From Aureibaculum sp. 2308TA14-22 (GTDB lineage: Bacteria; Bacteroidota; Bacteroidia; Flavobacteriales; Flavobacteriaceae), in the NCBI RefSeq assembly GCF_040538665.1, contig NZ_JBEWXT010000001.1:124001-188000 (forward strand): a stretch of DNA of 64,000 nucleotides. Direction: 5' to 3'. Positions 14,296-51,413 of the stretch are shown here, in pieces. Both the position numbers and the translations under genes were made by a program. The first letter of the stretch is position 1. Every line of letters begins with the position of its first letter. The notes under the pieces were generated by a model that saw only the letters and a list, made by a program, of their open reading frames with translations, had not been told where the DNA came from and did no database searches.

Positions 14296-15576
14296 TTAAT
14301 TGTGTACTTCGGGACTTTTAAAGTTCCATTTCAATGCCGACAATCCACCACCTATTAAGGCCATAATTACAAAGAAATAAAACAGGTTATTCCAACCAAA
14401 AGCTTCATTGATTGCTACTACTATAAAGCCTGAAAACATTTGACCTATTGACCCGGTTCCATTAATAATTCCTGCTGCCATTCCTGCTCCTTTTTTACCA
14501 CCAACATCCATAGCACCAGCTGTGCAAATAAGTGAATCTGGGCCATAGGTTGCAATGCCAATTAAGGCAATGCTTAAAACTACGCCGGTTTTACCAAAAG
14601 TAACCATATATGGATGTATTAAGCAAACTATCGCTAAACCAACCATCATAATTGTAACAGTACTAAATCGTTTTGATTTAAAAAATTTATCGGAAGAATA
14701 ACCCGCAAGGATAACGCCAAAAAAACCAATTAATTCATAAACCGAGGAAATGTAACCTGCTTCATTTACATCATAATTTAATGATTTTTCAAGATAAATA
14801 GGGAGCCAAAATAAAAAAGCATAACGTGTCATTTTAAGAATCATATAACAGCTAGAATAAATCCAAAGTGCTTTATTTTTTAAAAGAATTTTTAAGATTT
14901 TTAGGTTTTCGGATTTTTTGGTTACTTGAGATTGGAACTGATATTTATCTTCAACTATTATAGGAATATTAATATCTCTAGGATTATTCCTGGTGAATAA
15001 TAAATAAAAAAACGCCACTATAAGAAGTATTATTGAAGGGAAAAAGAAACCTCTTTTCCATCCCATTTCAGACATAAAATCCATATCAAAAGCAACATAA
15101 GTTGCAAAAATAGTAGCTAAAAATCCGCCAGTAACATAGCATGTGGACCACCAAGACATTACAATACCGCGTTCGTTACTTCTATACCACGGGGTCATAT
15201 TTTTAACTAAGCCACTCCAACCAGTTGATTGTCCATAACCGTTAATAGCAATTAGGAAAATTAGAATCCCAATAGAAAATGACATTCCTAAAAAAAAATT
15301 AGAAACAGCAGCCAGGAATAAACCTATACTAACAATTTTTCTAGGACCAAAAGTATCTGAAAAGTAACCATTTAAAAATTGGCCAATTGTATACACTAAA
15401 CTATAAATAAATATAATTGTAGCATAATCTGAATTGTTTAAACCTAAATCGGTTTCCATAGAACTCCAAGTGACCGATAAATTTTTACGGCCAAAATAAA
15501 AACCAGCGTAAGCAATCCATGTAAGAACAAAAATCCGCTTTCTCCAGTAATTCTGTTCTTTTGAAAATCCTGTCAT
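14296..15576 (-). CDS. OPA-type MFS transporter, probable phosphonate importer
   Basis: The 426-residue protein has 12 predicted membrane segments. The N-terminal run WIAYAGFYFGRKNLS is the signature of the organophosphate:phosphate antiporter group (GlpT, UhpT, PgtP), and GYFSDTFGPRK is the MFS loop 2-3 motif. Family members exchange phosphate for sugar phosphates, glycerol-3-phosphate or related anions. Its start overlaps the regulator stop (ATGA), and it is the last gene of the phn operon. Import of AEP or another phosphonate in exchange for the phosphate released by PhnA is therefore likely (inference). Export of an intermediate is less likely. Confidence 0.82.
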   Translation of the reverse strand: MTGFSKEQNYWRKRIFVLTWIAYAGFYFGRKNLSVTWSSMETDLGLNNSDYATIIFIYSLVYTIGQFLNGYFSDTFGPRKIVSIGLFLAAVSNFFLGMSFSIGILIFLIAINGYGQSTGWSGLVKNMTPWYRSNERGIVMSWWSTCYVTGGFLATIFATYVAFDMDFMSEMGWKRGFFFPSIILLIVAFFYLLFTRNNPRDINIPIIVEDKYQFQSQVTKKSENLKILKILLKNKALWIYSSCYMILKMTRYAFLFWLPIYLEKSLNYDVNEAGYISSVYELIGFFGVILAGYSSDKFFKSKRFSTVTIMMVGLAIVCLIHPYMVTFGKTGVVLSIALIGIATYGPDSLICTAGAMDVGGKKGAGMAAGIINGTGSIGQMFSGFIVVAINEAFGWNNLFYFFVIMALIGGGLSALKWNFKSPEVHN

Positions 15577-16136
15577 CGTTTCTTAATCAAATACATTTTG
15601 AGTAGGGTGGCATTTGTAGAATATTTAGTATTCCAGCCTAACGGGAATACACCATCATAAAATAAAAGGTCACCCTCATTTAAGGTTATAATTTCTTTAT
15701 CAAGTATATAGTCCAATTTTCCTTGTAAAACATAGGCAAGTTCGTAAGTATCACCGGCAATAGGCTTTCTGTAAATCCCTTCTTTTACTTTAATAATATA
15801 AGTTCTTAAGTTACTTGCGGGGACGTTATTGGAAAATAGAAAGGTATATTCCAAACCTTCCGAATCATCTCGTTCTTCTATTTCTCCTTCACCTTTTCTA
15901 ATAAGAATATATTTTCCTCCTTTTGAAGTAGATAAATTTAACTCTGTTAAATTTATTTCTAGAGACTGCATTATTTTTAAAAGTACAGGCAGAGAAGGAG
16001 TCGTTCTATAATTTTCAATTTTTGAAATAAGCCCGATGCTAACGTCACTCATCTTAGCAACTTGCTTGAGATTCAGGCCTTTACTCAATCTGATTCTTTT
16101 TAATTCTTTTCCTAAGTTTACGAGTACATCTTCCAA
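15573..16136 (-). CDS. XRE-cupin transcriptional regulator
   Basis: The 187-residue protein has an N-terminal XRE helix-turn-helix (about 10-64, LKQVAKMSDVSIGLISKIEN) and a C-terminal small cupin (about 105-182, AGDTYELAYVLQGKLDYIL, then LNEGDLLFYDG). Such regulators sense a small ligand in the cupin and often control nearby catabolic genes. It sits between phnW and the transporter in one operon, so it probably responds to AEP or an intermediate. It is a candidate to bind the palindrome at 20054-20068 and its copies. Confidence 0.88.
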   Translation of the reverse strand: MEDVLVNLGKELKRIRLSKGLNLKQVAKMSDVSIGLISKIENYRTTPSLPVLLKIMQSLEINLTELNLSTSKGGKYILIRKGEGEIEERDDSEGLEYTFLFSNNVPASNLRTYIIKVKEGIYRKPIAGDTYELAYVLQGKLDYILDKEIITLNEGDLLFYDGVFPLGWNTKYSTNATLLKMYLIKKR

Positions 16137-16153
16137 AATTTATCAATTTAATT

Positions 16154-17260
16154 TTACAAATATTTTATTTGACCAAGATACGCTTTTAAAACGTTTAGGA
16201 AAGCTTGCATATCTTCATAATCTATTTGTCCGATGTTAGAAATTCTAAATGTATCGTAATTATTTACTTTTCCAGGATAAATTGTAAATCCTCTTTCAAA
16301 GAAATAATCGTGCATTTCGTTAAAATCATAAGCATCTGTTTTTGGTTCTAGGATAGAGGTGATAATCTTTGAATGATATTCTTTATCAATTAAATACTCT
16401 AAACCTAATTCATCTAAACCGTTTAAAAGTGTCTCCCAAGATTTGCTATATCTTGCATAACGAGCTTCTATAGTCTCTTCTTTAGTTTCTATAATGGCTT
16501 GTTTTAATGCATAAAATGTTTGTACCGGCGGCGTAAAACGTGTTTGATGTGTCTTTTCAAAATTAGCGTATTGTGCAAATAGATTTAGGTATAAACTACG
16601 CATTGGAATAGTAGCGGTAGCCTCTAAGGCTGCTTTGTTACAAATAGCAAAACCAATACCGGCCATTCCTTGAATGTTTTTATTAGAACTGGCCGCTAAA
16701 TAATCTATATTCATAGATTTCATATCTACAGGAATAGCGGCAAATCCGCTCATGGAATCTACAATAAAACTAATATTGTGTTTTTTACAAAGTTTACCAA
16801 CCGATGTTATATCATTGAGTAAACCGGTTGTAGTTTCATGATGAATCATGGCTAAATGTGTTAAGCCATCAGTTTTTTGAATTAAAGTTTCCAAAGATTT
16901 TAAATCTATTGGTTCTATGGAGGAAGATTCATAAACTACGGTTGGAATCTTATAAACACTTGTAATTTGACACATACGTTTTCCGTAAGCCCCATTGTCT
17001 ATAATTAAAACTTTGCCGCTATCGGAAATTACAGAATTTAGAATGGCTTCTACCGTTGCGGTTCCAGAACCACCAAATAATACGGTGGCATATTCTTTGG
17101 GGTCACCAACAAACTTTGTAATTTCTGTTGCACAAAATTCCATTAAGTCGCCAAATTCTTTCTCTCTTGGGCAAATATCCGGTACTGCTTGTGCCAATTT
17201 TACAGAATCTGTAGTGGTTGCCGGACCAGGATTTAGTAATACGTTTCTTGTTATTTTCAT
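16154..17260 (-). CDS. phnW: 2-aminoethylphosphonate-pyruvate transaminase
   Basis: The 368-residue PLP enzyme (class V aminotransferase fold) turns AEP and pyruvate into phosphonoacetaldehyde and alanine. Seen are LNPGPATTT at the N terminus, FGGSGTATVEA (PLP phosphate region, about 62-72), IVDSMSGF and the Schiff-base lysine K194 in SSNKNIQG. Length and motifs match PhnW from start to end. It lies 35 bases downstream of phnY and 17 bases upstream of the regulator gene, in one operon. Confidence 0.94.
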   Translation of the reverse strand: MKITRNVLLNPGPATTTDSVKLAQAVPDICPREKEFGDLMEFCATEITKFVGDPKEYATVLFGGSGTATVEAILNSVISDSGKVLIIDNGAYGKRMCQITSVYKIPTVVYESSSIEPIDLKSLETLIQKTDGLTHLAMIHHETTTGLLNDITSVGKLCKKHNISFIVDSMSGFAAIPVDMKSMNIDYLAASSNKNIQGMAGIGFAICNKAALEATATIPMRSLYLNLFAQYANFEKTHQTRFTPPVQTFYALKQAIIETKEETIEARYARYSKSWETLLNGLDELGLEYLIDKEYHSKIITSILEPKTDAYDFNEMHDYFFERGFTIYPGKVNNYDTFRISNIGQIDYEDMQAFLNVLKAYLGQIKYL

Positions 17261-17295
17261 TTATTTTGAAGAATTAGAAATAATAATTTTATAAT

Positions 17296-18774
17296 TTAAG
17301 CAATATCCCAAGGTAAAGAATATGTTTTTATATAGGTATATCCTTTCATAGCTTCAATAACACCTTCTTTGTATCCTAAGCCAGAATCTTTAACACCACC
17401 AAAAGGTGTCCACTCTAGTCTATAACTAGGGGCTTCGTTAACGTTTACCGTACCGGTATCTAATTCTGTAATAACACGCTGAATGGATGGCCAATGATTA
17501 CTGACTACGCCACCAGATAATCCATATGGTGTATCATTCGCAATATCTATAGCCTCGTCTAGCGTTTCAAATCTGATAATCGGAGCTACCGGTCCAAAAG
17601 TTTCTTTGGCGACAACTTCATGCTCGTTTTTAATATGATCTAAAACGGTTGGAGCAAATAATGCGCCTTCGCGTTTATTTCCGGCAAGACAAACTGCACC
17701 ATTTTCTATTGCATTTTGCACTCGGCGTTCCATTTCTGTGGCAGCTTCTTCTGTAATTACAGTACCCATATCTGTATTTTCATCGTATGGATCTCCATAT
17801 TTTATGGCTTTTACCTTATTTGCAAGCTTTGTGGCATATTCGTCGGCAATACTATTGTGTACCAATATTCTGCGGATAGCGGTACAGCGTTGAGCCGAGT
17901 TTTTAAAGGTTCCTGCCATTGTAACATCAACGGCTTCATCAATATCTGCATCATCCAAAACCAACAATGCAGAGCTTCCGCCAAGTTCTAATACCAGTTT
18001 TTTGTAACCTGATTTTGATGCAATGATTTTACCTATTTCACTACCTCCTGTAAAAGAGACCATTGTGATATCTGGGTGCACTGTCATCATTTCTGAAGTT
18101 GCTTGAATGTCTTTACCATTAATACAATTCAACATATTTGGAGGCAAACCACAATCAAGTGCCAATTGTGCAAAATAATAAGCCGATAAAGGTGTTCTTT
18201 CAGAGGGTTTTAATACGACGGTATTGTTAGTTGCAATAGCAGGTGCTATTTTATGCACTACTTGATTCATGGGGTGGTTGAAAGGGGTAATAGCACTAAT
18301 TAACCCTAATGGAACACGTGTAGTATAAATACGTCTTGGTTTTCCGTTTTTAGAAACATCACAAGGAAATACTTGAGAATCATCATCTAGGGTTTTCATT
18401 GCAGAAAAGCGTAATACATCAGAAACCCGACTTGCCTCATACCGTGTATCTTTTAAACATAAACCAGTTTCATCGGTAATCATCTGGCTTACTTCGTCTA
18501 CACGTTTTTCTAATTCGTCTGCTATTTTATTTAAAATATCGTAACGCTCGTAACGCGTAAGTGTAATTTTTGTGTTTTTAGTGTCTTTTAATACCTGATC
18601 CAAGGTATTCGTATCGATAGAAGCGACTCTACCCACCAATTTTTTGGTGTAAGGATTGAATACTTCGATCCATTCGCCTGTTTTTACTTGTTTTCCATTT
18701 ATAATACCCCCGAATTCGATAATACTTGAACCCTCAACTTCTTTTTCCTTTTTTATACTTTTAATATCTTCCAT
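17296..18774 (-). CDS. phnY: Phosphonoacetaldehyde dehydrogenase
   Basis: The 492-residue NAD-dependent aldehyde dehydrogenase oxidises phosphonoacetaldehyde to phosphonoacetate. Catalytic C297 lies in NSAQRCTAIRR and the general base E263 in LELGGSSA. FTGGSEIGK is the coenzyme loop. The Arg-rich substrate surroundings and the position between phnA and phnW support the phosphonate-specific assignment over a general ALDH. It has a short N-terminal extension of about 20 lysine/glutamate-rich residues. Confidence 0.92.
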   Translation of the reverse strand: MEDIKSIKKEKEVEGSSIIEFGGIINGKQVKTGEWIEVFNPYTKKLVGRVASIDTNTLDQVLKDTKNTKITLTRYERYDILNKIADELEKRVDEVSQMITDETGLCLKDTRYEASRVSDVLRFSAMKTLDDDSQVFPCDVSKNGKPRRIYTTRVPLGLISAITPFNHPMNQVVHKIAPAIATNNTVVLKPSERTPLSAYYFAQLALDCGLPPNMLNCINGKDIQATSEMMTVHPDITMVSFTGGSEIGKIIASKSGYKKLVLELGGSSALLVLDDADIDEAVDVTMAGTFKNSAQRCTAIRRILVHNSIADEYATKLANKVKAIKYGDPYDENTDMGTVITEEAATEMERRVQNAIENGAVCLAGNKREGALFAPTVLDHIKNEHEVVAKETFGPVAPIIRFETLDEAIDIANDTPYGLSGGVVSNHWPSIQRVITELDTGTVNVNEAPSYRLEWTPFGGVKDSGLGYKEGVIEAMKGYTYIKTYSLPWDIA

Positions 18775-18801: not shown

Positions 18802-20013
18802 TTAGAATCCATTACTTAAAAAATGAAACAAGTCAAAATTTCTAGATGCTCCAGTTGCTAATTTTTCAGCATACTCTTCATTTAGTTTTTTATTGAAAAT
18901 CATTGGAACTACTTGGCAATGTTCACCTCCGTGAGAGCGTAAACCTTCTTTTACCTTATCAAGATCATGCCAATCAGGAGTTCTACCAATGGTTGTGGCA
19001 GCGTCAGAAAGAATTACTAAATCACCTATCCTATCGGAAGGTAATTCATAAGCTACGACCGCTTCGGCATTTGTTAACACTTTTTCAATACCATCTAAAC
19101 TCAATAAATAGGTTTTAGCGGCTTCTAGTTGAGATTTATCATCTAAATACAACGTTCCGTAGCCGCCTAGAGCACCATGATGCACTACATAAGGATCGGT
19201 AATAGGCAAAATAACACGTGTATTGATGCCCTGCTCGTTTAATAGTTTTTCTATAAATTGAACTTTAGGAGTGCCATCTGCGTTGGTTTTAGCTTGCATG
19301 CCATGGTCGGCAGTAATACCAACAATAGCACCTAGTTTGTCCAATTCGCCAAACCAGTAATCTATTTTAGATAAGAAATCATTTGCTTCGGGGTCTCCGG
19401 GAGCATATTTATGTTGTACAAAATCCGTTGTTGTTAAGTACATGATATCAAAATGCTGACGCTGTAATAATTTTGCACCCGCTTCGATACAATACACAGA
19501 AATATAAGGATCGTAAATACCTGGTCTATCTTTACCCATTAAATCTGATTCTACATTTTCAATACCATTTCCTTCTAAAGTAGCTTCATTTGCAAATTCA
19601 GCCGAAAAACAAATACCGTCTAAGTTATGGGAAAGCATTCTTCTTAACTTTTCTTTTGCGGTAACTACGGCAACTTTGCTTCCGTTTTTACTTTTTTCAG
19701 ATAAAATAGTAGGAACTTTTAGATATTTTGGGTCACTCATCATTACTTCCTTTTGAAGTTCTGTATCCCAATAGAAGTTTCCGCAGATACCATTTACATT
19801 TGGTGGAACACCAGTGGTAATAGCCATATTATTTGGGTTGGTAAATGATGGAATAACGGTTTTTACCATCCCAAAGGAACCTTCTTTTATAAAACGTTGC
19901 AAATTAGGCATTACATCCTTAGCTGCTTCGTAATAAGGGTAAGAGGTACCATCCATGCATATCCCAATTATTGTTTTATTCTGATTAGGATAATTTCTGT
20001 TGTTGATTTTCAT
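18802..20013 (-). CDS. phnA: Phosphonoacetate hydrolase
   Basis: The 403-residue alkaline-phosphatase-superfamily enzyme cleaves the C-P bond of phosphonoacetate to acetate and phosphate. Motifs include the metal aspartate in GICMDGTSY (near 21), nucleophile T58 in SFTNPNNMAITTG, and metal ligands in TTDFVQHKYAPG and ITADHGMQ. It is the first gene of the leftward operon, reading phnA-phnY-phnW-regulator-transporter, and gives a complete AEP-to-acetate route. The cytoplasmic location (no signal peptide) fits intracellular catabolism. Confidence 0.94.
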   Translation of the reverse strand: MKINNRNYPNQNKTIIGICMDGTSYPYYEAAKDVMPNLQRFIKEGSFGMVKTVIPSFTNPNNMAITTGVPPNVNGICGNFYWDTELQKEVMMSDPKYLKVPTILSEKSKNGSKVAVVTAKEKLRRMLSHNLDGICFSAEFANEATLEGNGIENVESDLMGKDRPGIYDPYISVYCIEAGAKLLQRQHFDIMYLTTTDFVQHKYAPGDPEANDFLSKIDYWFGELDKLGAIVGITADHGMQAKTNADGTPKVQFIEKLLNEQGINTRVILPITDPYVVHHGALGGYGTLYLDDKSQLEAAKTYLLSLDGIEKVLTNAEAVVAYELPSDRIGDLVILSDAATTIGRTPDWHDLDKVKEGLRSHGGEHCQVVPMIFNKKLNEEYAEKLATGASRNFDLFHFLSNGF

Positions 20014-20510: not shown

Positions 20511-20774
20511 GTTAAACATGTGAGCTAGATTTTAAATAAATATTAAAGAATAATATTTGATATTTATTTAAAAAGTAAAACACTATAACTGACAAAAAAT
20601 AAAACTTTAGTAAACATTTTAGTAGTAAGTAAATTATGAACCTAACTCAAAAACTTCATGAAATGATAGACTAAAAAAAAATCAAACACTTTTTTTTGGA
20701 AAAGCAAGATCCAAACTATTTTTTGGTTAAGTGATGAAACTAACTTTTAACAAACTTAATATACAATTGTGAGT

Positions 20775-23700
20775 ATGAAAAAATTTAAAAAATTTAAGTA
20801 TCGACTTAATGCTACCTCAGCAATTAAGGTAAAGTTAACATCGTTTGTGCTTTTGGGATTTTTAATCCTTACGCAAACGAATATATACGCCCTAAATAAT
20901 TTACTCTATTTAGATTTTGAAAAATCAACAGTCCAACAACAAGAAATTAAGGGAACTGTTAAGGATGCTCAAGGTAATTCATTACCTGGAGTAAGTATCA
21001 TAATTAAGGGTACTAATAAAGGTACACAAACAGATTTTGATGGTAACTACGCTATTAGTGCAAGTAATGGAGATGAACTAGTATTTTCTTTTGTGGGCAT
21101 GACAACAGTAACAATTGCTGTTGGAGATCAAAATACAATTGATGTCACACTACAAGAAGATGCGAACCAACTTGAAGAAGTTGTAGTGACAGCCTTAGGT
21201 ATTAAAAAAGAGAAGAAACGTATTGGTTTTGCGGTTCAAGAAGTTAAAGGAGAGGCTCTTCAAAAAGCCGTTACTCCTAATATTGTTGAATCTTTAACAG
21301 GTAAAGTTGCAGGTCTTATTGTTACCAATAATTCAAGTGATTTCTTTTCGGACCCTCAATTCTATTTGAGAGGTAGTAGACCATTAATGGTTGTTGATGG
21401 AGTACCACAAACCAATTCTGATATTTGGAATTTATCTTCTGATGATATTGAGAGTATTACGGTCCTAAAATCCGGTGCTGCATCGGCTCTGTATGGTTCA
21501 CCAGGTCGAAACGGTGCTATACAACTTACCTTAAAATCAGGTAGGAGTCAAGATAAAGGAATAGTAGTTTCTTACAATTCTTCTACTTTATTTCAAAAAG
21601 GATTTTTAAGAGTTCCAAGTATTCAAACTGAGTATGGTCCAGGTAATAATGGTATTTATCGTTATGGTGGTGGTTTAGCTGGTGGTGATGGTTTGACCGA
21701 AGGTGGTGGAATCAATGATTTTGACTATTCCATTTGGGGTCCTAAATTTGATGGTAGGCTTATTGTTCAATTCGATTCTCCAATTGACCCAAATACAGGC
21801 TATCGTATTCCTACGCCTTGGATATCGAGAGGGCCTGACAATTTGAAAAACTTCATGGAAGTTGGGCTTGTAACATCAAATAATATTACTGTTCAGGCAA
21901 ACTCAGATGTAGGGTCATTTGTAATTTCTAATACGTACAAGTATTCTAAAGCGTCAACTCCAGGTCAGCGTTTAGATATTAATACTACAAGATTAAGAGG
22001 TAGTTTAAATTTATCAGAAAAATTTACCATTGATGGGTCGCTTCAATATAACTATCAGTTTTCCGATAATAGGATTAGAGGAAGTTACGGACCTACATCT
22101 CCTATTTATAATTTAGCAATTTGGGGTGGAGCTCATTTCGATATTCGCAACTTTAAACAAGTTTGGGAAGAAGGAAAAGAGGGTATACGTCAAAATTTTG
22201 TGGAACACTGGCGTTTCAATAACCCATACGCCTTGGCACATGCTTGGAAAAGACCATGGACAAAAAATGATTTAATATCATTTTTAAAGTTTACGTATAA
22301 GTTTAATGATAATGTAAGTGCTTATTTCCGTTCTACATTAAATTCATATACATTAACAGCAAATGAAGAAATTCATAAAGATATATATAATTACGATATT
22401 TCTGATCGAGGTGGTCGTTTTAGATACTTTAACGAACGTTATTTTGAAAATAACACGGACTTTTTAGTTTCTTATAATAAAGATTTTATCAATGATAATT
22501 TAAATGTAAATGCTACTTTAGGGGGTAACCAACGTTATTTCAGAAATCATGAAGAAAGTGCTACTACAACTCAGTTGATAGTGCCTGGCGTTTTTACCTT
22601 ACAAAATTCTGTAGATCAAGTACAGCCTAGTAGTTATAAAGAACAAAAAGGTGTATATAGTGGTTATGCTACGGTAGATTTAGCTTATAAAGATAAAATA
22701 TTTTTAGGTGCAACGGGTCGTATTGATAAATCATCAACTTTACCAGAATCTAATGATTCTTTCTTTTACCCTTCGGTTTATGGTAGTGTTATTGTAAGTG
22801 AATTGTTTAATTTACCCGATTTTATTGGCTTTTTTAAATTAAGAGCAGCATATGCACAAGTGGGTGGTGATTTGGATATTTATGAAGCAAGAAATTCGTA
22901 TAGTACTGATAGATGGAGAAATTTACCAACAGCTAGTTTTCCTGGAACTTTAGAAAACCCTTTATTAAAACCTTCCTTTACCAATACTTATGAATATGGT
23001 TTTGAGACGAGACTATTTCAGGGTAGATTAGGTATTGATTTTTCTTATTATAGAAATCGATACGGACCACAAATCTTTACTCAAGATTTTTCAGCCGCAT
23101 CTGGTTATAGCGGAATTTTACAAAATGGTAGAGAGACTGAAAGAAGAGGTGTGGATTTTTCTATAACAGCCTCACCTGTTAAATCTGATAATTTTAACTG
23201 GACTACTGTTCTTAATTTTGACACCTATTCAGATTTTCTTATTTCTTTGCCAGCTCTTGAAGATGGTACCGTACCAGACAGAGAAGGTCGGACTTTTGTA
23301 GGTGAAGAGTTGAATCATTATTGGTATAATGTATGGGACAGATCACCGGACGGACAATTAATTATTGGTTCAAATGGTTTACCCGTGGGAAGACCACCCG
23401 TTGATCTTGGTGATACCCAACCAGATTTTACTGCAAGTATTAATAATATGATTCAGTATAAAGACTTATCACTTAGTTTCTTAATAGATGGTCGTTTTGG
23501 TGGTGTGACATTCGATAGATATGAACGTGATTTATGGAGATCCGGTTCACACCCAGATGCCGTACATCCTGAAAGAGAACTCTCCAATATCGCTTTTGCG
23601 ACTGGTGGTGATGCCAGAACCATGCAAATACCTGGTGTTTCAGTTGTTTCAGGCGAAGTAGAATATGATGCTGATGGTAATGTGTTAACAGATACCCGTG

Positions 23701-24017
23701 TTTTTGAACCCAGTACAGCAATGGTAGCATACCCTCAATGGGCATCTAATTATAAAGGAGATTGGCGAAGTGTTATTATAGATAAAACTTTTGCCAAATT
23801 AAGAGAAGTTACGTTAACTTATAATATTCCTAGCAAAACTTTGAAGAAAACATTTTTTAAATCGGCTTCAATATCTTTAATTGGTAGAAATCTGTTGTAT
23901 TGGACAGAAGCCGATACCTTTGGAGATTTAGATACCTATACTGTATCTACAGGTGATACTAATTTGCAACAACCTTCGCAAAGATCGTATGGATTTAATA
24001 TTAACTTACAATTTTAA
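20775..24017 (+). CDS. SusC-like TonB-dependent outer-membrane transporter
   Basis: The product from the ATG at 20775 is 1080 residues long. A signal region (to about 42) is followed by a carboxypeptidase-regulatory-like domain (about 58-130, KGTVKDAQGNSLPGVSIIIK), a TonB box (LEEVVVTALG), a plug (about 145-260) and a beta barrel ending in an aromatic residue (NINLQF). It imports glycan fragments together with the SusD protein encoded 7 bases downstream. It is the first gene of the rightward locus. A GTG six bases upstream could also serve as start. Confidence 0.95.
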   Translation: MKKFKKFKYRLNATSAIKVKLTSFVLLGFLILTQTNIYALNNLLYLDFEKSTVQQQEIKGTVKDAQGNSLPGVSIIIKGTNKGTQTDFDGNYAISASNGDELVFSFVGMTTVTIAVGDQNTIDVTLQEDANQLEEVVVTALGIKKEKKRIGFAVQEVKGEALQKAVTPNIVESLTGKVAGLIVTNNSSDFFSDPQFYLRGSRPLMVVDGVPQTNSDIWNLSSDDIESITVLKSGAASALYGSPGRNGAIQLTLKSGRSQDKGIVVSYNSSTLFQKGFLRVPSIQTEYGPGNNGIYRYGGGLAGGDGLTEGGGINDFDYSIWGPKFDGRLIVQFDSPIDPNTGYRIPTPWISRGPDNLKNFMEVGLVTSNNITVQANSDVGSFVISNTYKYSKASTPGQRLDINTTRLRGSLNLSEKFTIDGSLQYNYQFSDNRIRGSYGPTSPIYNLAIWGGAHFDIRNFKQVWEEGKEGIRQNFVEHWRFNNPYALAHAWKRPWTKNDLISFLKFTYKFNDNVSAYFRSTLNSYTLTANEEIHKDIYNYDISDRGGRFRYFNERYFENNTDFLVSYNKDFINDNLNVNATLGGNQRYFRNHEESATTTQLIVPGVFTLQNSVDQVQPSSYKEQKGVYSGYATVDLAYKDKIFLGATGRIDKSSTLPESNDSFFYPSVYGSVIVSELFNLPDFIGFFKLRAAYAQVGGDLDIYEARNSYSTDRWRNLPTASFPGTLENPLLKPSFTNTYEYGFETRLFQGRLGIDFSYYRNRYGPQIFTQDFSAASGYSGILQNGRETERRGVDFSITASPVKSDNFNWTTVLNFDTYSDFLISLPALEDGTVPDREGRTFVGEELNHYWYNVWDRSPDGQLIIGSNGLPVGRPPVDLGDTQPDFTASINNMIQYKDLSLSFLIDGRFGGVTFDRYERDLWRSGSHPDAVHPERELSNIAFATGGDARTMQIPGVSVVSGEVEYDADGNVLTDTRVFEPSTAMVAYPQWASNYKGDWRSVIIDKTFAKLREVTLTYNIPSKTLKKTFFKSASISLIGRNLLYWTEADTFGDLDTYTVSTGDTNLQQPSQRSYGFNINLQF

Positions 24018-24024
24018 AATAGTT

Positions 24025-26746: not shown

Positions 26747-26793
26747 TATTTTAAAATGATGTAACAATTAGGTTGATTTTATTTAGGTACAAT

Positions 26794-32580: not shown

Positions 32581-32691
32581 GAACTTGAAAGGTAACCTAA
32601 TCCTACTCTTTTCATTAGTGATGGTATGGATTTGAAAGATATTTCTTTTCTTTTTTGGAAAGCAATGCATGATTTTAAAGTAGTAAGAATG

Positions 32692-43186: not shown

Positions 43187-43202
43187 AAAATATATATAAA
43201 CT

Positions 43203-44702: not shown

Positions 44703-46799
44703 ATGAAGTTTAAACATTTAAAAATTTTAGTAATTACCTTATTCGTTGTATGTTATTCTTGTGCTCAAAAAATTGCACCGCCTGAACCGTTTGGTCCCAT
44801 ACCTTCAGAACGTCAACTTCGATGGCACGAGATGGAATACTATGCTTTTATTCATTTTAATATAAATACGTTTACCAATATGGAATGGGGCGATGGAAGT
44901 GAAAAGCCAGTACAATTTAATCCATCGGAGTTGGATGCCAGACAATGGGCAAAAACGATTAAAGATGCGGGTATGAAAGGCGTTATTATTACGGCAAAGC
45001 ATCATGATGGATTTTGTCTTTGGCCGTCAAAATATACTGAGCATTCGGTAAAAAACTCACCATGGAAAGATGGAAAAGGCGATGTGCTCAAAGATTTATC
45101 GGAAGCTTGTAAAGAGTACGGTTTAAAAATGGGTGTGTATTTATCACCTTGGGATAGAAACCATGCGGATTATGGTAAGCCAGAATATGTAACCTATTTT
45201 CACAATCAATTAAGAGAGTTATTAACCAATTATGGCGACATTTTTGAAGTTTGGTTTGATGGGGCAAATGGTGGTTCTGGATTTTATGGAGGTGCAAATG
45301 AAACACGTAAAATTGACAATAGAACCTATTATCAATGGGATAAAGCCATCGAAATGGTTAGAGAATTACAGCCTAATGCAGTTATTTTCGGCGACGGTGG
45401 TCCTGGAGTACGTTGGGTTGGTAACGAAGAAGGTTGGGCAAATGAAACCAATTGGAGTTTATTGAGACGTGATGAAGTGTATCCTGGGTATCAAAAATAT
45501 AAAGAGTTACGTTCTGGACACGAAGATGGTACACATTGGGTGCCCGCTGAATGCGATGTATCAATTAGGCCAGGATGGTACTATCATAAATCTGAAGATA
45601 CACAAGTACATTCACTAGAACGTTTAGTAAAAATATATTACGAATCTATTGGAAGAAATGCGTCGTTATTATTGAATTTACCAGTGGACGATAGAGGTCT
45701 GGTTCATGAAAAAGATGTGGAACAATTAATGGCTTTAAAGCAACAGATAGAAAAAGATTTTTCAAAGAATTTGGCTTTAGAAACTAAAGTTTCTGCAACC
45801 AATGTTAGAGGAAATGCTTCAAAATATGAAGCAGAGAATGTAAATGATGGAAATTCAGAAACGTACTGGTCAACCGATGATGATGTTAAAAAAGCTTCAA
45901 TAACGTTGTCTTTTAAAGAACCTACCGAAGTGAATAGAATTGTTTTGGAGGAGTACATTCCTTTAGGTCAACGTGTGAATAAATTCACGGTTGAAACTGA
46001 AGTAAAGGGTAAGTGGAAATTAATCGATACCCAAACGACTATTGGCGATAAACGTATTTTAAGATTTAATACGGTAAAAGCATCAAAAGTGAGGGTAAAT
46101 ATAGAAGCTAAGGCAGCATTAACAATTTCGAATATTGAGTTGTATCGTGCTCCAAATTTTTTAACACAACCTGTTATTACAAGGAATATCGAAGGTGAAG
46201 TGACTATTGTCGTAGCAGATGAAAATATTGAAGTATATTATACGCTTGATGGCTCAGAGCCAAATACTTCTTCATTAAAATACAATCAACCCTTTATGGT
46301 GAATCAACCAACAAAAATAAAAGCGATTGCATATAATCCAGAAGATAAAGCCCAAACAAGAGTTAAAGAAGTTTATTTCGATATTTCTAAAAAAGATTGG
46401 AAAGTACTTAAAACACCTTCAACTAAAAGTTATAGAATTCCTAGAATTATTGATGAAAACCTAGATTCTTCTTGGGTGAGTGATTCAAACATTGGTAAAT
46501 CTAAAGAAGTAATTGTCGATTTAGGAAAAGCGTATGATTTGTCAGGTTTTACCTATATGCCAATGCGAGGGCGTCATCCGGAAGGAATAATATCGCATTA
46601 TGAATTTTTTGTAAGTATGCACAATGAAAAATGGATGCCTGTTGCAAAAGGTGAGTTTGGGAACATCAAAAACAATCCTATCGAGCAAACAGTAAAGTTT
46701 AAATCAACTAAAGGACGCTACATTAAGCTAAAAGCACTTAAAATAGTAGATGGAGTTGACAAAATGTCTGTTGGAGAATTAGGTGTAATTACTGAATAA
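44703..46799 (+). CDS. GH29 alpha-L-fucosidase with carbohydrate-binding domains (subfamily B-like)
   Basis: A 698-residue protein with a lipoprotein-like signal (CYSC). The catalytic barrel (about 30-350) includes ITAKHHDGFCLW and nucleophile Asp in FEVWFDGANGG. After it come an F5/8-type (CBM32-like) domain (about 355-480), a chitobiase-type C-terminal beta domain (YYTLDGSEPNTSS, about 505-560) and a second discoidin-like domain (about 570-698). Subfamily B enzymes prefer alpha-1,3/1,4-fucose on branched glycans. This architecture is common in host-glycan degradation. Confidence 0.92.
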   Translation: MKFKHLKILVITLFVVCYSCAQKIAPPEPFGPIPSERQLRWHEMEYYAFIHFNINTFTNMEWGDGSEKPVQFNPSELDARQWAKTIKDAGMKGVIITAKHHDGFCLWPSKYTEHSVKNSPWKDGKGDVLKDLSEACKEYGLKMGVYLSPWDRNHADYGKPEYVTYFHNQLRELLTNYGDIFEVWFDGANGGSGFYGGANETRKIDNRTYYQWDKAIEMVRELQPNAVIFGDGGPGVRWVGNEEGWANETNWSLLRRDEVYPGYQKYKELRSGHEDGTHWVPAECDVSIRPGWYYHKSEDTQVHSLERLVKIYYESIGRNASLLLNLPVDDRGLVHEKDVEQLMALKQQIEKDFSKNLALETKVSATNVRGNASKYEAENVNDGNSETYWSTDDDVKKASITLSFKEPTEVNRIVLEEYIPLGQRVNKFTVETEVKGKWKLIDTQTTIGDKRILRFNTVKASKVRVNIEAKAALTISNIELYRAPNFLTQPVITRNIEGEVTIVVADENIEVYYTLDGSEPNTSSLKYNQPFMVNQPTKIKAIAYNPEDKAQTRVKEVYFDISKKDWKVLKTPSTKSYRIPRIIDENLDSSWVSDSNIGKSKEVIVDLGKAYDLSGFTYMPMRGRHPEGIISHYEFFVSMHNEKWMPVAKGEFGNIKNNPIEQTVKFKSTKGRYIKLKALKIVDGVDKMSVGELGVITE

Positions 46800-46929
46800 T
46801 TAAGCATAAAAAATCAATGTAAAAAAATCATTCTATCAATGCATCTTATGCTCAAAGGCAAAAACACTATTGTAAATCATAATCTAAATATTGATGTTGA
46901 GATTCTTTTTGTTCAAATTACAAAAAATA

Positions 46930-48567
46930 ATGACACAAATAATAACACAAAAAATGCTAAATTACTTATCTATTCCTATCATTATGCTTTTAGCATGTAA
47001 TGAAAAAAATAACACAATTAAAAATCCTGAACCTTCAAATACTTCAACTACCGATAAGGTTTTATTGATAGGTTTCGATGGTATACGAAGCGATGTCTTT
47101 GAGCTTTTATTAGAAAGTGGTCAGTTGCCCAATATGAAAAAGCTGATTGACAATGGTGTATATTTCAGCAAAGCGACCACATCTGATTTAACCGGAAGCT
47201 GGGGTGGTTGGTGCGACGTTTTAAGGGGTGTACATCGCGATAAACACGAAGCAGGATATTGGGGTCAAAATGTTGATCCAGGATCGGATATTCCAGAATT
47301 TGTGGCATTCCCAGATCTGTTTACAAGGTTGGAAGCACATAATAGTGATTTGAATACCAAATCGTTTATTACTTGGGAAGGATTAGATAAATCCTTAGAT
47401 AAGGCCGATGAAAGAATTTTTGAGAATTATAATAATAACGGTGATGAAATTGTTACCGCCAAAGCTGTTGCTAATTTAAAAAGTGGCAATCCCGATGTTG
47501 TTTTTTTCTATCAAGCTGATACGGATATAGGTGGTCATAACAACGGGTTTGGGCCAAATGCCATTGCAACTTCATTGAGCCAGTTTCCATCTGCATATAT
47601 AAATACAATCAAGCAAGCAGATATTAATGCGGGTAAGGTATTAACAGCAATAAAATCTAGGACAAATTTTGATAATGAAAAGTGGTTGGTCTTGTTTACC
47701 TCGGACCATGGTGGTACAAACGGCGGTCATTCGCAAAACAGAGTTGCGGAACGAAATGTTCCTATAATAGTCAGTAGTTTGAATTTTGAAATTTCCAAAC
47801 CTACTAACGATGCCAGTCATATTGATATTCAACCAAAAAATATAGATATTGTACCTACTATTTTAAATTATTTAAGTATTTCTAAGACTTCAGATGCATG
47901 GTTAGCTTTGGAGGGTCATGATATATTTGAAATTATTGATATGAAGCGAGATTTAAGTCTTGATAAGAACTTAATCTTTAATAGTGACGCCGAATATGAC
48001 ACGGGTTTTGATGGTCAAGATGAGACCATTAGAGATGGTGGTTCCAAGGCTGGAGAGAGAGATTGGCCCGCTGAAGGTGTTTATTGGGATCAAACGATAA
48101 GTGCCTGGGACGACTGGACAGAAACACCATCTAGGCATAGTATGACGGTTGCTTTTTATGGATCAGGGCAAGATGACACATTTCTGCAAAAAGATCAAGC
48201 AACAAATTGGAACGGAGGTAAAAACTTTTTTTGTGCTGGGATAGATGGTAATAGTGAGATGGAACAATCAATTAATATAAGTTCTTTATCCGCTAATTCT
48301 TATGAAATTTCAGGTTATTTAGGAGGAAGTAAAACATCAAGTGACACTGCTACAATAACGGTTACATTTTTAAACTCTAGTGGTAGCGAGATCAGTACTA
48401 CTGTGGTTAATGGACCTTCTGCTTACGAAAGGGACAATACCACAACGTTAATCTTAAAGAGTAAAAACGGATCCTTGCCAAATGGTACACATTCCGTAAA
48501 AATTAAATTAAAAATTAATGGTAAATATGGATTTGCCGATAATTTAAGTTTTGTCTTGAAAAATTAA
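46930..48567 (+). CDS. Alkaline-phosphatase-superfamily hydrolase with cysteine at nucleophile position
   Basis: From the ATG at 46930, a 545-residue lipoprotein (LLAC, Cys23). The catalytic domain is at about 40-330: metal D50 in LLIGFDGIRSD, TDIGGHNNGFG and FTSDHGGTNGGHS. Where relatives in the same island have WTSML or WMTIL with Thr, this one has GWCDVLRG, placing Cys95 at the nucleophile position and forming C-x-V-x-R. That resembles the C-x-P-x-R of sulfatases and phosphonate monoester hydrolases. The C-terminal third (about 345-545) is a CBM-like jelly roll. The substrate is unknown. Confidence 0.82.
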   Translation: MTQIITQKMLNYLSIPIIMLLACNEKNNTIKNPEPSNTSTTDKVLLIGFDGIRSDVFELLLESGQLPNMKKLIDNGVYFSKATTSDLTGSWGGWCDVLRGVHRDKHEAGYWGQNVDPGSDIPEFVAFPDLFTRLEAHNSDLNTKSFITWEGLDKSLDKADERIFENYNNNGDEIVTAKAVANLKSGNPDVVFFYQADTDIGGHNNGFGPNAIATSLSQFPSAYINTIKQADINAGKVLTAIKSRTNFDNEKWLVLFTSDHGGTNGGHSQNRVAERNVPIIVSSLNFEISKPTNDASHIDIQPKNIDIVPTILNYLSISKTSDAWLALEGHDIFEIIDMKRDLSLDKNLIFNSDAEYDTGFDGQDETIRDGGSKAGERDWPAEGVYWDQTISAWDDWTETPSRHSMTVAFYGSGQDDTFLQKDQATNWNGGKNFFCAGIDGNSEMEQSINISSLSANSYEISGYLGGSKTSSDTATITVTFLNSSGSEISTTVVNGPSAYERDNTTTLILKSKNGSLPNGTHSVKIKLKINGKYGFADNLSFVLKN

Positions 48568-48797
48568 AAGTAACTTAAAAGTTCAGAAATTTTGAAATAC
48601 TGAAAGTTATTTGAGATTCACTAACTAAGATTGGTTTTATTAATCCATTCAGGCGATTTTGCATTGTCACCTATTTAAAATGTGTAAGAATTCTAAAGTT
48701 TTAAATAAAGAAGAAACTTTTTATTTATCAGACCATTATTCAGTAGTGGCGGAGTTTCATATTTAATATTTGTAAATTAAAAATTAAGAGTAAAACT

Positions 48798-51413
48798 ATG
48801 TTGAAAAAAATCACGCTATTAATCACTATAGCATTAAGTTGTCAACTTAATGCACAAAATGCAGATGCTGAAATTTATTCAGGAAAACAATTAAAATACA
48901 TAGGAATGCCTATTGGGGGTATTACGGCAGGACAAGTGTATTTAGGTGGTGATGGTCAATTATGGTATTGGGATATTTTTAATATACAGCGTATTAAACC
49001 AGGTGGCCCTGGTGATAAATTTTATATCAACCCCTTGACGCAAGACAATCAATTCGACCAAGGTTTTGCGGTTCGTGTTAAAAAATTATTGCCAACAACC
49101 ATTACACCTATTGTAAAACCATTAAATAGCGATGGATTTTCTGACATTACGTTTAGAGGGGAATACCCCATAGGGAAAGTAACGTATAAAGATGCCGATT
49201 TCCCAATATCAATAAAACTAAATGCGTTTTCACCATTTATTCCGACCGACCATGAATCGTCTGATTTTCCAGCAGTAGTTATGGAATATACATTGACCAA
49301 CGATTCAGATACTAAAGTTTCTGTGGAGTTATTCGGGTGGCTTCAAAATATGGCTAATTATAAAACGGCAAGTGAAGCTAATGGAAAAGCTAAAAATGAA
49401 ATCATAAAATCAGGAGAGGCACTTCAATTGTTTGCTTCTTCAAACGTAACTGATGAAGCCAGCAAAGATTTACCAGATTATGGTAATATGTCTTTAACCC
49501 TATTAGAAGGCAATGAGGCTTGGGGGTCGCCATCTACACCACAAGATATTAATTATAATTTAACTGAAGTTTCTCCATCAAAAAATAAAGGCGAAGAAAC
49601 TGCTTTAGGAAAAAAACTTACTGGCGTTATAGGAAAAGAAGTTGAACTGAAAGCAGGGGAAAGTAAAACATTAACCTTTGTGCTATCTTGGTATTTTCCA
49701 AATGTTCACCGTAAAGAAAGTGGTTTTCACGATTTAAAAAACAGAGATAATTTAAGACATTATTACAGTAAAAAGTTTAAGTCATCAGCAGATGTGGCAA
49801 GCAAAATTGCTGCAAAAAAAACTAAATATTTAGAAACTACAAAACAGTGGAATAAAACCTGGTATAATGCATCATTACCATCATGGTTTTTAGATAGAAC
49901 TTTTGTAAATACAAGTATTTTAGCAACAACTTCTTGTTACCGTTTAGATGACTTAACTGATAATCCTGACAATGAAAACCGTTTTTACACCATGGAAGGA
50001 GTGTATTTAGGTCATGGTACATGTACACATGTTTTTCATTACGAACAGGCATTAGGTAGAGTGTTTCCTAGTTTGGCCCGTCAATTAAGAACCCAAATAG
50101 ATTATGGTTTATCATTTAATAAAGGGGTTATTGGTTATAGAGCAGAATTAAGTGAAATTGGACATCATGATGGACGCGGTTATGCGGTTGATGGACAAGC
50201 AGGAACCATTTTAAGAGCCTACAGAGAACACACTACTGCATCAAATAACAACTATTTAAAATCGTATTGGCCAAAAATTAAAGAAAGTTTGGAATATATG
50301 ATTGCACATGATGCTGAAAAATCAATAAAGCCAGACGGTATTTTAGAAGGTGTACAATACAATACCTTAGACAAAATGTGGTATGGTAAAAATGCATGGC
50401 AAAGTAGTCTGTACAATGCAGCATTGCAGGCAGGTGCAGATATGGCAATAGAAATGGGAGATAAAAAGTTTGCGAAAAACTTCAAGGCCATAGCTAAACT
50501 AGGACAACAAAACATGACCAATCAATTTTTTGATGGTGAATATTTTATAAATATTCCGGATCCCGATAATACGGAGAATCCAAATACTAATATTGGTTGT
50601 CATATTGATCAAGTATTAGGACAATCATGGGCTATTCAAGCAGGATTACCACGCGTATTACCTAAAAAGGAAACGGTTAGTGCCTTAAAATCAATTTATA
50701 AATATAATTTTCAAAAAGATGTTGGAAAATATTTAGATACGGCGACTATCAAAAATGTCCGTTTTTATGCCTTGCCTGGTGAGGCGGGAACTATTATGTG
50801 TACGTTTCCAAAGGGAGGAGCATTAGAATCTAAAGGCACAAAAGCGGCAGATTGGGATAATCTAGTAGTAGGCTATTTCAGTGAATGTATGACCGGGTTT
50901 ACCTACCAAGTGGCGGGACATATGATTGCTGAAGGATTGGTAGATGAGGGAATGAGTATGATTAAAGCCATTCATGATCGTTATCAGCCTCAAAAAAGAA
51001 ACCCATATAACGAAGTGGAATATGGTAATCATTATACACGTGCCATGTCTAGTTACGGAGCTTTTGTATCGGCTTCTGGGTTTACATTAAACGAGCCTAA
51101 TGGAAGAATTGGTTTTTCACCAAAGATAAACCCTAATGATTTTAAATCGGCATTTATTGCAGGAAACAGTTGGGGTACATTTATCCAAAAAGTTGAAGAC
51201 AACCAGCTAAAAGTGAGTTTAGAAGTTACTTATGGTAAATTAAAACTACAAGAAATTAGTTTAGATGAATTATCGAATGCTAAAGAAGTAGTATTGATAA
51301 TAAATGAAAAAAAAACAAAAGCAAGATTAATTAAAAGCAATACTAAATTAATCGTGTATTTCAAAACCATTACACTTTCGAAAGGTGATAAATTAGAAAT
51401 TAAAGTTTCATAA
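48798..51413 (+). CDS. GH116 glycoside hydrolase (glucosylceramidase type)
   Basis: An 871-residue secreted enzyme (signal to about 19). The N-terminal beta-sandwich (about 25-330, [16 protein letters not shown]) and C-terminal alpha/alpha6 domain (about 365-780) are those of GH116. The probable nucleophile Glu is in [11 protein letters not shown] and the acid/base Asp in [12 protein letters not shown], by comparison with the family (recalled). GH116 includes bile-acid beta-glucosidase/glucosylceramidase GBA2 and bacterial beta-glucosidases, beta-xylosidases and beta-GlcNAcases. A glycolipid core is therefore a possible substrate. It is the last glycosidase gene of the locus. Confidence 0.85.

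Follow-up and report, generated by a model that had tools for sequence, protein, structure and literature searches.

The locus studied here raises the question of what substrate would call for a SusC/SusD system, exported phosphoesterases and glycosidases, and a pathway for 2-aminoethylphosphonate (AEP) catabolism in a single gene neighborhood. Glycans and lipids of invertebrates, among them molluscs and cnidarians, are capped with AEP and methyl-AEP. Host-glycan PULs contain SusCD, GH20, GH29, and GH123 enzymes, M60 peptidases, and Exo_endo_phos and PF01663 phosphodiesterases, as does the window, the whole stretch of 64,000 nucleotides that was analyzed; we know of no case of AEP catabolism in PULs of this kind. 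No description of bacterial removal and use of AEP or methyl-AEP caps from invertebrate glycans or lipids was found in the open-access literature, among the matches listed. The presence of AEP on invertebrate glycans, on which the original prediction relied, is borne out by published structures; in the accessible part of PMC6994554, N-glycans, O-fucose structures, and glycolipids of molluscs bear AEP and methyl-AEP, and O-glycans of jellyfish bear AEP. Profile matches to the open reading frames located all of the predicted gene classes at their expected places, namely phnA-phnY-phnW with an OPA-type transporter, divergent from SusC/SusD and followed by fucosidases, hexosaminidases, an M60 peptidase, and exported phosphoesterases. 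The locus had been taken to end at 51413, which was wrong; the co-directional run extends to 62801 and beyond 51413 contains a dimethylglycine dehydrogenase (DMGDH)-type enzyme, ETF-beta, ETF-alpha, a CCG/Fe-S protein, PurU, one Metallophos and two Exo_endo_phos phosphoesterases, an RbsD/FucU-like protein, and a NUDIX hydrolase. Gene identities, linkage, SusCD-phn recurrence, the island, and export signals are read from the DNA itself, with lipoprotein and signal sequences called by eye and by a simple pattern.

The phn genes lie on the minus strand in a single operon with the transporter and regulator genes. PhnA, phosphonoacetate hydrolase (18802-20013), scores 458 bits against TIGR02335 (cut-off 408) and has the phosphonoacetate hydrolase 1ei6 as its closest solved relative (E 1.3e-115), and PhnW, 2-AEP transaminase (16154-17260), scores 414 bits against TIGR03301 (cut-off 361). 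PhnY, phosphonoacetaldehyde dehydrogenase (17296-18774), has TIGR03250 as its best match at 630.4 bits, 5 bits below the NCBIfam cut-off of 635.65. All three enzymes of the hydrolytic PhnWYA pathway known from PMC10590968 and PMC9381506, as far as their accessible text describes it, are thus present, and together they would yield alanine, acetate, and phosphate. In contrast to that pathway, the window has a predicted outer-membrane supply through SusCD, and its regulator and OPA carrier are typical of its Bacteroidota group. Of the 16 phn loci compared in Bacteroidota, 10 have the HTH and cupin regulator (15573-16136), the window's own included. The OPA-type MFS transporter (14296-15576) has TIGR00881 as its best match, under the cut-off, and copies adjoin phn in 11 other loci at 72-85% identity (that of G212 is split into two ORFs) and, at 53%, in L011. 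This carrier is predicted to move free AEP and methyl-AEP across the inner membrane.

Divergent from phn on the plus strand are a SusC-type TonB-dependent transporter (20769-24017), which passes TIGR04056, and a SusD-like lipoprotein (23953-25536; PF12771) with a true start probably 3' of the listed GTG. SusC and SusD lie at most 10 kb from phnA in 10 of the 16 loci, the SusD of G006 being a weak match. PhnA was found in 7 of 299 Flavobacteriaceae genomes and is linked to both genes within 10 kb in six of these, again counting the weak G006 SusD, for which the probability by chance is roughly 0.002 given the many SusC proteins per genome, a count assumed from one genome. SusC proteins of at least 59% identity occur in five of the 299 genomes (four besides the window's own) when the best two first-look candidates per genome are scored, and four of the five have PhnA (hypergeometric 5e-7, with genomes that are non-independent samples and between which transfer across genera is likely). 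G269 has a SusCD of 57-60% identity and no PhnA or phosphonatase over the cut-off. A search for the gene set in other Bacteroidota, proposed with the original prediction, thus found SusCD and phn together in nine other loci, and for the import genes it therefore does not hold that the two never occur together elsewhere. The predicted union of a PUL with AEP catabolism stands in that SusCD and phn are adjacent and recurrent; this recurrence supports the SusCD-phn pairing and the glycosidases less, homologs of the latter occurring in few other phn loci. SusC/SusD would import the pieces released from a phosphonate-bearing polymer.

The genes past the previously assumed end were missed in the original prediction. 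The DMGDH-type FAD/tetrahydrofolate demethylating dehydrogenase (51526-53979) is followed on the same plus strand by ETF-beta (54017-54778), ETF-alpha (54803-55756), a membrane Fe-S/CCG oxidoreductase proposed for the ETF:quinone step (55852-57966), and PurU, a formyltetrahydrofolate deformylase above the cut-off (58005-58877). The dehydrogenase contains DAO, FAO_M, GCV_T, and GCV_T_C domains in a match over its full length, and retains a TWHAAGL segment, the His of which holds FAD in DMGDH. It resembles dimethylglycine and sarcosine dehydrogenases (PDB 4pab, 5l46, and 1pj5) in both the two-domain architecture and this segment, with an E value of 5e-159 against rat DMGDH (4pab). It differs from them in its genomic setting of phosphonate catabolism, as all three members in the family sample lie in phn loci: scoring the best three candidates per genome, DMGDH was found in 3 of 299 Flavobacteriaceae genomes, all of them PhnA-positive (hypergeometric 8e-6), and shares a gene cluster with phnA at a distance of 16 to 32 kb. 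In G240, a 60% homolog of the window's NUDIX hydrolase (62241-62801) adjoins pbfA-PurU-DMGDH. Four betaproteobacterial genomes of one clade have DMGDH 3 to 5 kb from phnA, and the phn-linked label requires at least three changes on the DMGDH tree. Read most simply, the tree has two recruitments of DMGDH in Flavobacteriaceae and one in Betaproteobacteria, although the three changes may also represent one gain and two losses.

Enzymes encoded beside phn genes are known to use methyl-AEP (PMC10590968, accessible part). The phn-linked FAD enzymes PbfC/D described there yield methylamine and phosphonoacetaldehyde rather than AEP. Like PbfB/C/D, the window enzyme is a phn-locus FAD amine oxidoreductase that would channel methyl-AEP into the AEP route, but it is not a single-domain PF01266 protein adjoining phn; it has two domains with a folate-binding second half, stands alongside ETF, the Fe-S protein, and PurU, and has AEP and methylene-THF as its predicted products. 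Another FAD amine oxidoreductase occupies phn loci without DMGDH, G162 having both, and one or the other is present in 11 of the 16 loci; G006 and G212 contain phnWYA with neither enzyme found at the thresholds used. This other enzyme occurs in four of the 299 Flavobacteriaceae genomes, three of them with PhnA and the fourth being G057. The 407-aa neighbor enzyme of G162 is PbfB/C/D-like by architecture alone and reaches no curated cut-off. The DMGDH-ETF-PurU module points to N-methylated AEP as judged from gene content: the DMGDH-type enzyme would demethylate methyl-AEP, yielding AEP; ETF and the Fe-S protein would accept the electrons, tetrahydrofolate would take up the C1 unit, and PurU would regenerate folate with release of formate.

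The same module could instead serve dimethylglycine or sarcosine derived from betaine and choline, with phosphorylcholine glycans cut by the same phosphoesterases and the phn adjacency reflecting joint use of zwitterionic substituents. Phosphorylcholine is likewise found on invertebrate glycans (PMC6994554, accessible part), the enzyme is clearly DMGDH-like, and 7 of 9 Burkholderiales genomes with a DMGDH relative lack PhnA, which occurs in 4 of 31 tested genomes without such a relative; the DMGDH family is therefore not phosphonate-specific. However, no choline dehydrogenase over the cut-off was present in any of five genomes (the window's own, G240, G162, G129, and G119), a check confined to this one route from choline, and the phn linkage of all three flavobacterial DMGDH genes is repeated in the betaproteobacterial clade. 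We regard a choline-derived substrate as unlikely.

Nine exported phosphoesterase-family proteins are encoded on the plus strand. These are a PF01663 lipoprotein phosphodiesterase with LamG and DUF4983 (26773-28443), an ENPP-like PF01663 phosphodiesterase (31675-32580), three Exo_endo_phos proteins (32626-33738, without a PDB match at E 0.01; 59999-60820, with homologs of 53% in G018 and 56% in G269; and 60824-61615), two alkaline-phosphatase-superfamily hydrolases matching PF01663/PF00884 (39125-40171 and the lipoprotein 46891-48567), and two calcineurin-like phosphoesterases, one fused to a beta-propeller (40328-42805) and one (58986-59993) with homologs of 38-40% in seven other phn loci. 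Homologous phosphoesterases occur in 8 of 15 other phn loci, with none in the readable DNA (2-4% N) of the other two loci that have DMGDH, G240 and G162. The predicted absence of sulfatases holds in the main, except that two phosphodiesterases barely pass PF00884 (cut-off 25 bits), with PF01663 scoring higher in both: 25.3 against 28.4 bits for 39125-40171 and 26.3 against 39.4 for 46891-48567. One of the two contains an S-x-P-x-R string. The relative G162 has a clear sulfatase ~38 kb from phnA, adjoining GH20 and GH123.

The closest precedent for this arrangement is the phosphate utilization systems (PUS) of Flavobacterium, in which six PusCD clusters co-localize with phosphoesterases and "phosphonate-degrading enzymes" (PMC8115612); neither phnW nor phnA is named in the main text. 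The statement that no PUL of this design had been described consequently needs a qualifier, as these soil Flavobacterium clusters precede it, but in the accessible part of PMC8115612 they are separated from carbohydrate-enzyme SusCD clusters. Both SusCD with exported phosphoesterases and the number of the latter would suit a scavenging system that gathers mixed organic phosphorus, phosphonates included, at phosphate starvation, with no dedicated glycan. We consider this distinctly unlikely. PusCD has no carbohydrate enzymes around it by our reading of PMC8115612, whereas the window run adds GH20, GH123, two GH29, and GH116 enzymes, a mucin-type M60 peptidase, and a demethylation module that would supply carbon and nitrogen, not phosphate.

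Exported glycosidases co-directional with adjacent SusC/SusD, as in a PUL, are the lipoproteins GH20 hexosaminidase (33809-35209), GH123 of the beta-N-acetylgalactosaminidase family (36858-38624), and two GH29 alpha-L-fucosidases (43203-44681 and, with F5/8C domains, 44703-46799), together with a GH116 glycosidase (48798-51413), whose closest solved relative is an exo-beta-D-arabinofuranosidase, followed by glucosylceramidases. The same plus strand encodes an M60 (enhancin-like) peptidase lipoprotein (35495-36844), a LamG-like surface lipoprotein (25557-26690; weak match, under the Pfam cut-off), a MORN-repeat secreted protein (28500-29171; homologs of 48-53% in G162 and G240), a secreted 801-aa protein with no family assigned (29203-31608), and an RbsD/FucU-like lipoprotein (61587-62228). 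Of the 15 other phn loci, several of them covered over 10 kb per side, just three contain homologs of the GH20, GH123, GH29, GH116, or M60 proteins: GH123 in Arenibacter certesii L007 (78%, 7.5 kb from phnA), GH116 in L011, and GH20 (72%, 36 kb) and GH123 (73%, 39 kb) in G162, both adjoining a second SusCD.

This sparse recurrence, G240 showing none, would also suit a sphingophosphonolipid (ceramide AEP or its N-methyl form) or other phosphonolipid as the substrate, with the glycosidases serving a separate or co-occurring glycan. Both forms of ceramide AEP occur in molluscs and cnidarians, and the Exo_endo_phos family includes sphingomyelinases. G162 encodes a PF04185 phospholipase C ~33 kb from phnA between its second SusCD and GH20, and methylaminoethylphosphonate is a term in the accessible text of papers on coral and mussel lipids. 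However, no ceramidase or fatty-acid family was detected among the island ORFs scanned, and M60, GH29, GH20, and GH123 share the co-directional run with the phosphoesterases. We view a lipid as a somewhat unlikely substrate, while glycosylated phosphonosphingolipids would fit lipid and glycan alike.

The reading we prefer, and rate as slightly better than an even chance, is that the locus serves phosphonate-glycoconjugate utilization, with N-methyl-AEP demethylated by the folate/ETF route to AEP and mineralized by PhnWYA. The exported lipoprotein phosphodiesterases, which would act on the phosphonate substituents, the glycosidases, and the M60 peptidase would dismantle the polymer outside the cell and in the periplasm, and the genes involved are presumably co-regulated. 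The locus would then be a source of phosphonate-cap-specific enzymes for glycomics and would add an animal-derived phosphonate route via Bacteroidota to the marine phosphorus cycle. The proposed N-methyl removal appears to be a route hitherto undescribed for phosphonates, and would be a candidate second chemistry for N-methyl-AEP use, retaining nitrogen and saving the methyl carbon. More tentatively, and at somewhat less than an even chance, DMGDH-type folate/ETF-dependent N-demethylation of methylated AEPs, drawn into phosphonate loci on more than one occasion, together with SusCD uptake of phosphonate-decorated animal glycoconjugates in Flavobacteriaceae, here on a mobile island, may constitute a new activity and a new PUL type.

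The entire phn/SusCD/phosphoesterase/DMGDH gene set lies on a 52.9-kb element at tRNA-Leu. Islands collect unrelated cargo, and a mucin-type PUL of the ordinary kind could have landed by accident on the same one as an AEP operon, in keeping with the few other phn loci that have glycosidases. This is very improbable considering the nine other loci with SusCD and phn together and an alternative PhnX-type version in G057, where SusCD and phosphodiesterases lie near the other FAD amine oxidoreductase and a phosphonatase-like HAD protein (below the cut-off). The locus is on an inserted island, which the original prediction also overlooked, with mobility predicted from its features. A tyrosine recombinase with phage_integrase and Arm-DNA-bind_5 domains (10477-11745, plus strand) lies inside one border, and no conjugation families were found among the island ORFs scanned. 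The left attachment repeat (10317-10377, minus strand) consists of 61 bp identical to the right repeat (63175-63235, minus strand), the 3' part of tRNA-Leu; the right repeat is inside the intact tRNA-Leu (63176-63262), which scores 61 bits compared with 34 bits for the degenerate left copy. The congener G119 is without the island, and the flanks are 9.7 kb apart there.

Within the 3.57-Mb Flavobacteriaceae genome the window spans C1:124001-188000. On its minus strand lie genes for an OPA-type carrier, an HTH-cupin regulator, PhnW (2-aminoethylphosphonate, AEP, transaminase), PhnY (phosphonoacetaldehyde dehydrogenase) and PhnA (phosphonoacetate hydrolase). Divergent from PhnA, across a gap of 755 bases, SusC and SusD open a plus-strand run that encodes GH20, GH123, two GH29 and GH116 glycosidases and one M60 peptidase. 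Nine members of phosphoesterase families are also encoded there, four of them PF01663, three Exo_endo_phos and two Metallophos, as are a LamG lipoprotein, a MORN protein and an 801-aa protein. The original prediction of a phosphonoglycan-utilisation locus at 14296-51413, joining a polysaccharide utilisation locus (PUL) to AEP catabolism, described a real locus but ended it too early, as the run reaches 62801 and a whole module was missed. Beyond 51413 follow a dimethylglycine-dehydrogenase-type protein (DMGDH, 51526-53979), both ETF subunits (beta, then alpha), a membrane Fe-S/CCG protein and PurU. Five further genes lie 3' of PurU, encoding one Metallophos and two Exo_endo_phos proteins, an RbsD/FucU-like protein and a NUDIX protein. 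Gene starts were taken from a mechanical ORF list. Lipobox-like or signal N-termini, judged by eye, a simple pattern and hydropathy rather than a trained predictor, are present on the exported proteins of the SusCD run and absent from the Phn, DMGDH and ETF proteins. The simple lipoprotein pattern also marked the NUDIX protein. It left SusD unmarked, and likewise the first Exo_endo_phos protein, which has a lipobox-like Cys on by-eye reading. The RbsD/FucU-like domain at 61587-62228 is carried by a protein with a lipoprotein-like signal, which is unusual, the family being known to be cytosolic. The secreted 801-aa protein (29203-31608) gave no family match and no convincing PDB match, its single-sequence structure model has a mean pLDDT of only 34, and the one homolog in 14 genomes searched (56%) lies elsewhere in the genome of G162.

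PhnA occurs in 7/299 sampled Flavobacteriaceae genomes, and in every one phnA-phnY-phnW, an OPA gene and a regulator share a stretch of no more than about 9 kb. G212 differs in having its OPA gene broken into two ORFs and in lacking SusCD nearby. SusC and SusD lie within 10 kb of phnA in the other six, the window among them. G006 and G018 have SusC proteins of other kinds, 27-34% alike to that of the window, and the G006 SusD resembles the window's weakly (E = 7e-8). Given the many SusC genes per genome (44 to 108 SusC-like first-look candidates, with 80 assumed for G212), the rough chance of at least six in seven is 0.002. The comparison was extended to 16 distinct Bacteroidota phn loci, comprising those of the seven family genomes, six from Arenibacter (one from the same genome as G212), and those of three Chitinophaga MAGs and one Fulvivirga MAG. 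SusC and SusD are within 10 kb of phnA in 10 of the 16, and a SusC of at least 59% identity is present in eight, including the window. No nearby SusCD is seen in the sequence available for Arenibacter L012, G212, Fulvivirga and all three Chitinophaga loci, some of these loci being short on one side. In the reverse query, limited to the top two first-look candidates of each genome, a SusC of at least 59% identity was found in 5/299 genomes, four of them with PhnA (chance 5e-7). These family statistics treat as independent genomes that are not in fact independent. There is good support for SusCD uptake being coupled to AEP catabolism. The locus itself is real, extends beyond the interval first proposed and recurs elsewhere in its SusCD-phn core.

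The fifth genome of the reverse query, G269, has SusCD close to the window's, two Exo_endo_phos genes and distant GH29 and GH116 relatives (C3:338634-351448), without phn genes. PhnX was considered as the missing partner, but neither PhnA nor a phosphonatase reaches the cut-off in this genome; the G269 SusCD is possibly the same import system with a phosphate ester replacing the phosphonate. Because the PhnX model gives sub-cut-off matches in 12/12 genomes and 14/14 controls, only the matches of 104-109 bits (G057, G250 and G021) seem meaningful, and those of G250 and G021 are not near their SusC. In G057 (C409; L176/L177) a row of SusC, SusD, two phosphodiesterases, MPP, DUF5690, a FAD enzyme, a phosphonatase-like HAD protein and a regulator was found, with a SusC 34% alike and a HAD match of 108 bits against a 220-bit cut-off. 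This row is a predicted PhnX-type version of the same design with another C-P cleavage step. Between phn and SusC in two PhnA genomes there are ECF sigma factor/FecR-like pairs, named by eye (G240:C2:439483-441345 and G162:C9:39281-41153). Since no such pair was found in the 755-base gap of the window, regulation may differ between these loci.

The degradative enzymes recur more narrowly. A homolog of at least one of the nine phosphoesterases is present in 8/15 other phn loci, with none in the readable DNA of G240, G162 (2-4% of the DNA of these two reads N), G006, G212 and the three Chitinophaga loci. Homologs of the five glycosidases or the M60 peptidase, counted for the window's families only and with part of the neighbor proteins Pfam-scanned, occur in 3/15: L007 (GH123, 78%), L011 (GH116, 68%) and G162 (GH20, 72%, and GH123, 73%, 36-39 kb from phnA and adjoining a second SusCD copy). 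The original prediction that phn and glycan genes belong together thus holds elsewhere for SusCD and only narrowly for the glycosidases and peptidase. On these counts SusCD, phn and a FAD amine enzyme make up the recurrent core, joined by phosphoesterases in roughly half of the loci.

Along its whole length the window DMGDH aligns with rat DMGDH (E = 5e-159). At E 1e-100 the enzyme is present in 3/299 family genomes, those of the window, G240 (94% identical, though another genus) and G162 (41%), and all three have PhnA (chance 8e-6, the 299 genomes being treated as independent). In each, the DMGDH gene is part of the phn-SusCD cluster, at a distance of 16 to 32 kb from phnA. The order DMGDH-ETF-ETF-CCG-PurU recurs in G240 with 84-94% identity and has PbfA next to it (hydroxy-AEP ammonia-lyase; 712 bits against a cut-off of 525), and G162 has DMGDH and PurU. 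Several phn loci without DMGDH (Arenibacter L003, L004, L006, L007 and L012, Fulvivirga L011, G129 and G018) have instead an FAD amine oxidoreductase with one domain and some 410 aa, and G162 carries both. One or the other is present in 11/16 Bacteroidota phn loci and neither in G006, G212 and the three Chitinophaga loci. The single-domain enzyme occurs in 4/299 family genomes, three with PhnA (chance 3e-5), the fourth being G057.

Outside the Bacteroidota, a DMGDH-like gene was found in 4/70 phnA loci (L013-L082). In three betaproteobacterial genomes the sole DMGDH-like gene (E 1e-60) is the one near phnA-phnY; five comparison genomes (those of L026, L027, L031, L042 and L054) were our own choice. 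Rhizobium L070 was rejected as phn-linked, its genome having five DMGDH-like genes of which the one near phn is not closest to the window's. Six genes of L066 are co-directional and separated by 12 to 24 bases; in order they are phnA, phnY, one for a PhnZ-like HD protein that passes the TIGR03276 cut-off, one for an EamA carrier, DMGDH and a NUDIX gene. This betaproteobacterial operon (L066:293-7691 and G351:C1:1453128-1460911, where phnA, phnY and DMGDH are the identified genes and the PhnZ-like protein is that of L066) is a second setting for the proposed demethylase. Across 200 Burkholderiales genomes, the order of G301, nine have DMGDH (E 1e-150), and only two of these have PhnA (the seed and G351, linked), so the DMGDH family at large serves something else; PhnA was found in 4/31 tested of the 191 without DMGDH. 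The broader family does contain a phn-linked clade. In a tree of 20 rows (G302_C38 left out as a very long branch, G299 unlike the others in letter make-up) the four betaproteobacterial phn-linked enzymes form one clade (100/100), window and G240 form a second, and G162 is placed by itself on a long branch. At least three changes of the phn-linked label are forced by branches with good support, and these may be three separate gains or a single gain with two losses. The active-site columns hold no clear phosphonate signature.

Enzymes of the DMGDH family remove an N-methyl group as methylene-THF and pass electrons to ETF, and PurU returns folate through formate. In the proposed pathway the DMGDH-type enzyme would convert methyl-AEP to AEP, with the methyl group leaving as methylene-THF and the electrons going to ETF, and the AEP so formed would enter PhnW. 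The main reason for a methylated phosphonate as substrate is that DMGDH is joined to phn loci on distant branches, and N-methyl-AEP is a good and testable candidate, for which the enzyme would be a demethylase. A betaine-related substrate is weakened to a lesser possibility because no choline dehydrogenase passed the cut-off in 5/5 genomes tested; among controls 1/14 reaches it. Trust in the best explanation as a whole, phosphonate-glycoconjugate utilisation with N-methyl-AEP demethylated to AEP, and in its more novel form is tempered by the narrow recurrence of phosphoesterases and glycosidases and by a tree that permits losses as well as gains; three rival readings become slightly more likely on the same grounds. 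In the available text of PMC10590968, PhnW cannot use a secondary amine and PbfB/C/D, phn-linked FAD enzymes, oxidize N-methyl-AEP; the single-domain enzymes resemble these by genomic setting.

In the available text of PMC6994554, mollusc N-glycans, O-fucose structures and glycolipids are described as capped by AEP and methyl-AEP, and jellyfish O-glycans by AEP; in that of PMC10540779, AEP is described on HexNAc of velvet-worm slime. The fucosidases, hexosaminidases, GH123 and M60 peptidase are consistent with such capped glycans. This compatibility falls short of proof, as the glycosidases vary between loci, G162 also carries a phospholipase C and a sulfatase, and the best solved relative of the GH116 protein is an exo-beta-D-arabinofuranosidase, which also weakens glucosylceramide as its target. 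The closest published system is the PusCD clusters of Flavobacterium, phosphate utilisation systems (PUS) with phosphoesterases and phosphonate-degrading enzymes, which are set apart from carbohydrate clusters in the available text of PMC8115612. Among the matches listed in the open-access literature there was no report of an AEP PUL or a phn-linked DMGDH. The locus adds to the PUL/PUS types, with a possible new enzyme activity. The pbfA-phnY-phnA combination is said to be limited to Proteobacteria in the available text of a 2025 paper (PMC12366243). This statement may need widening, because in Flavobacteriaceae pbfA-type genes lie beside phnA in G129 (pbfA-phnA-phnY-phnW contiguous, pbfA at L100:16283-17638) or 13 to 26 kb from it in G240 (L089:11761-13101) and G018 (C1:1614-2957 and 14454-15803); the G129 and G240 copies exceed the curated cut-off. 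A 53% PbfA-like gene also lies near phnA in a Verrucomicrobiales MAG (L078:16530).

The whole locus (10317-63235) is an insertion of about 52.9 kb at tRNA-Leu, at a site that accepts other inserts, as indicated by its repeats, a recombinase and comparison with the congener G119. An exact 61-bp repeat of the 3' part of tRNA-Leu(taa) lies at 10317-10377 and 63175-63235, with a tyrosine recombinase directly inside the left copy and tRNA scores of 61 bits for the right copy versus 34 for the left. In G119, which is without PhnA, 9.7 kb separate the two flanks, the right one carrying the single tRNA-Leu, and no match to the window's island proteins was found in 20 kb read at the site. Since a different 9.7-kb segment occupies it there, the site looks like an integration hotspot. 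The DMGDH-PurU block (51526-58877) has a G+C content of 40% against 33-35% elsewhere in the locus, a hint that its origin is separate. A run of short unassigned ORFs at 11767-13800, lying between integrase and phn operon, perhaps represents decayed mobile-element genes.
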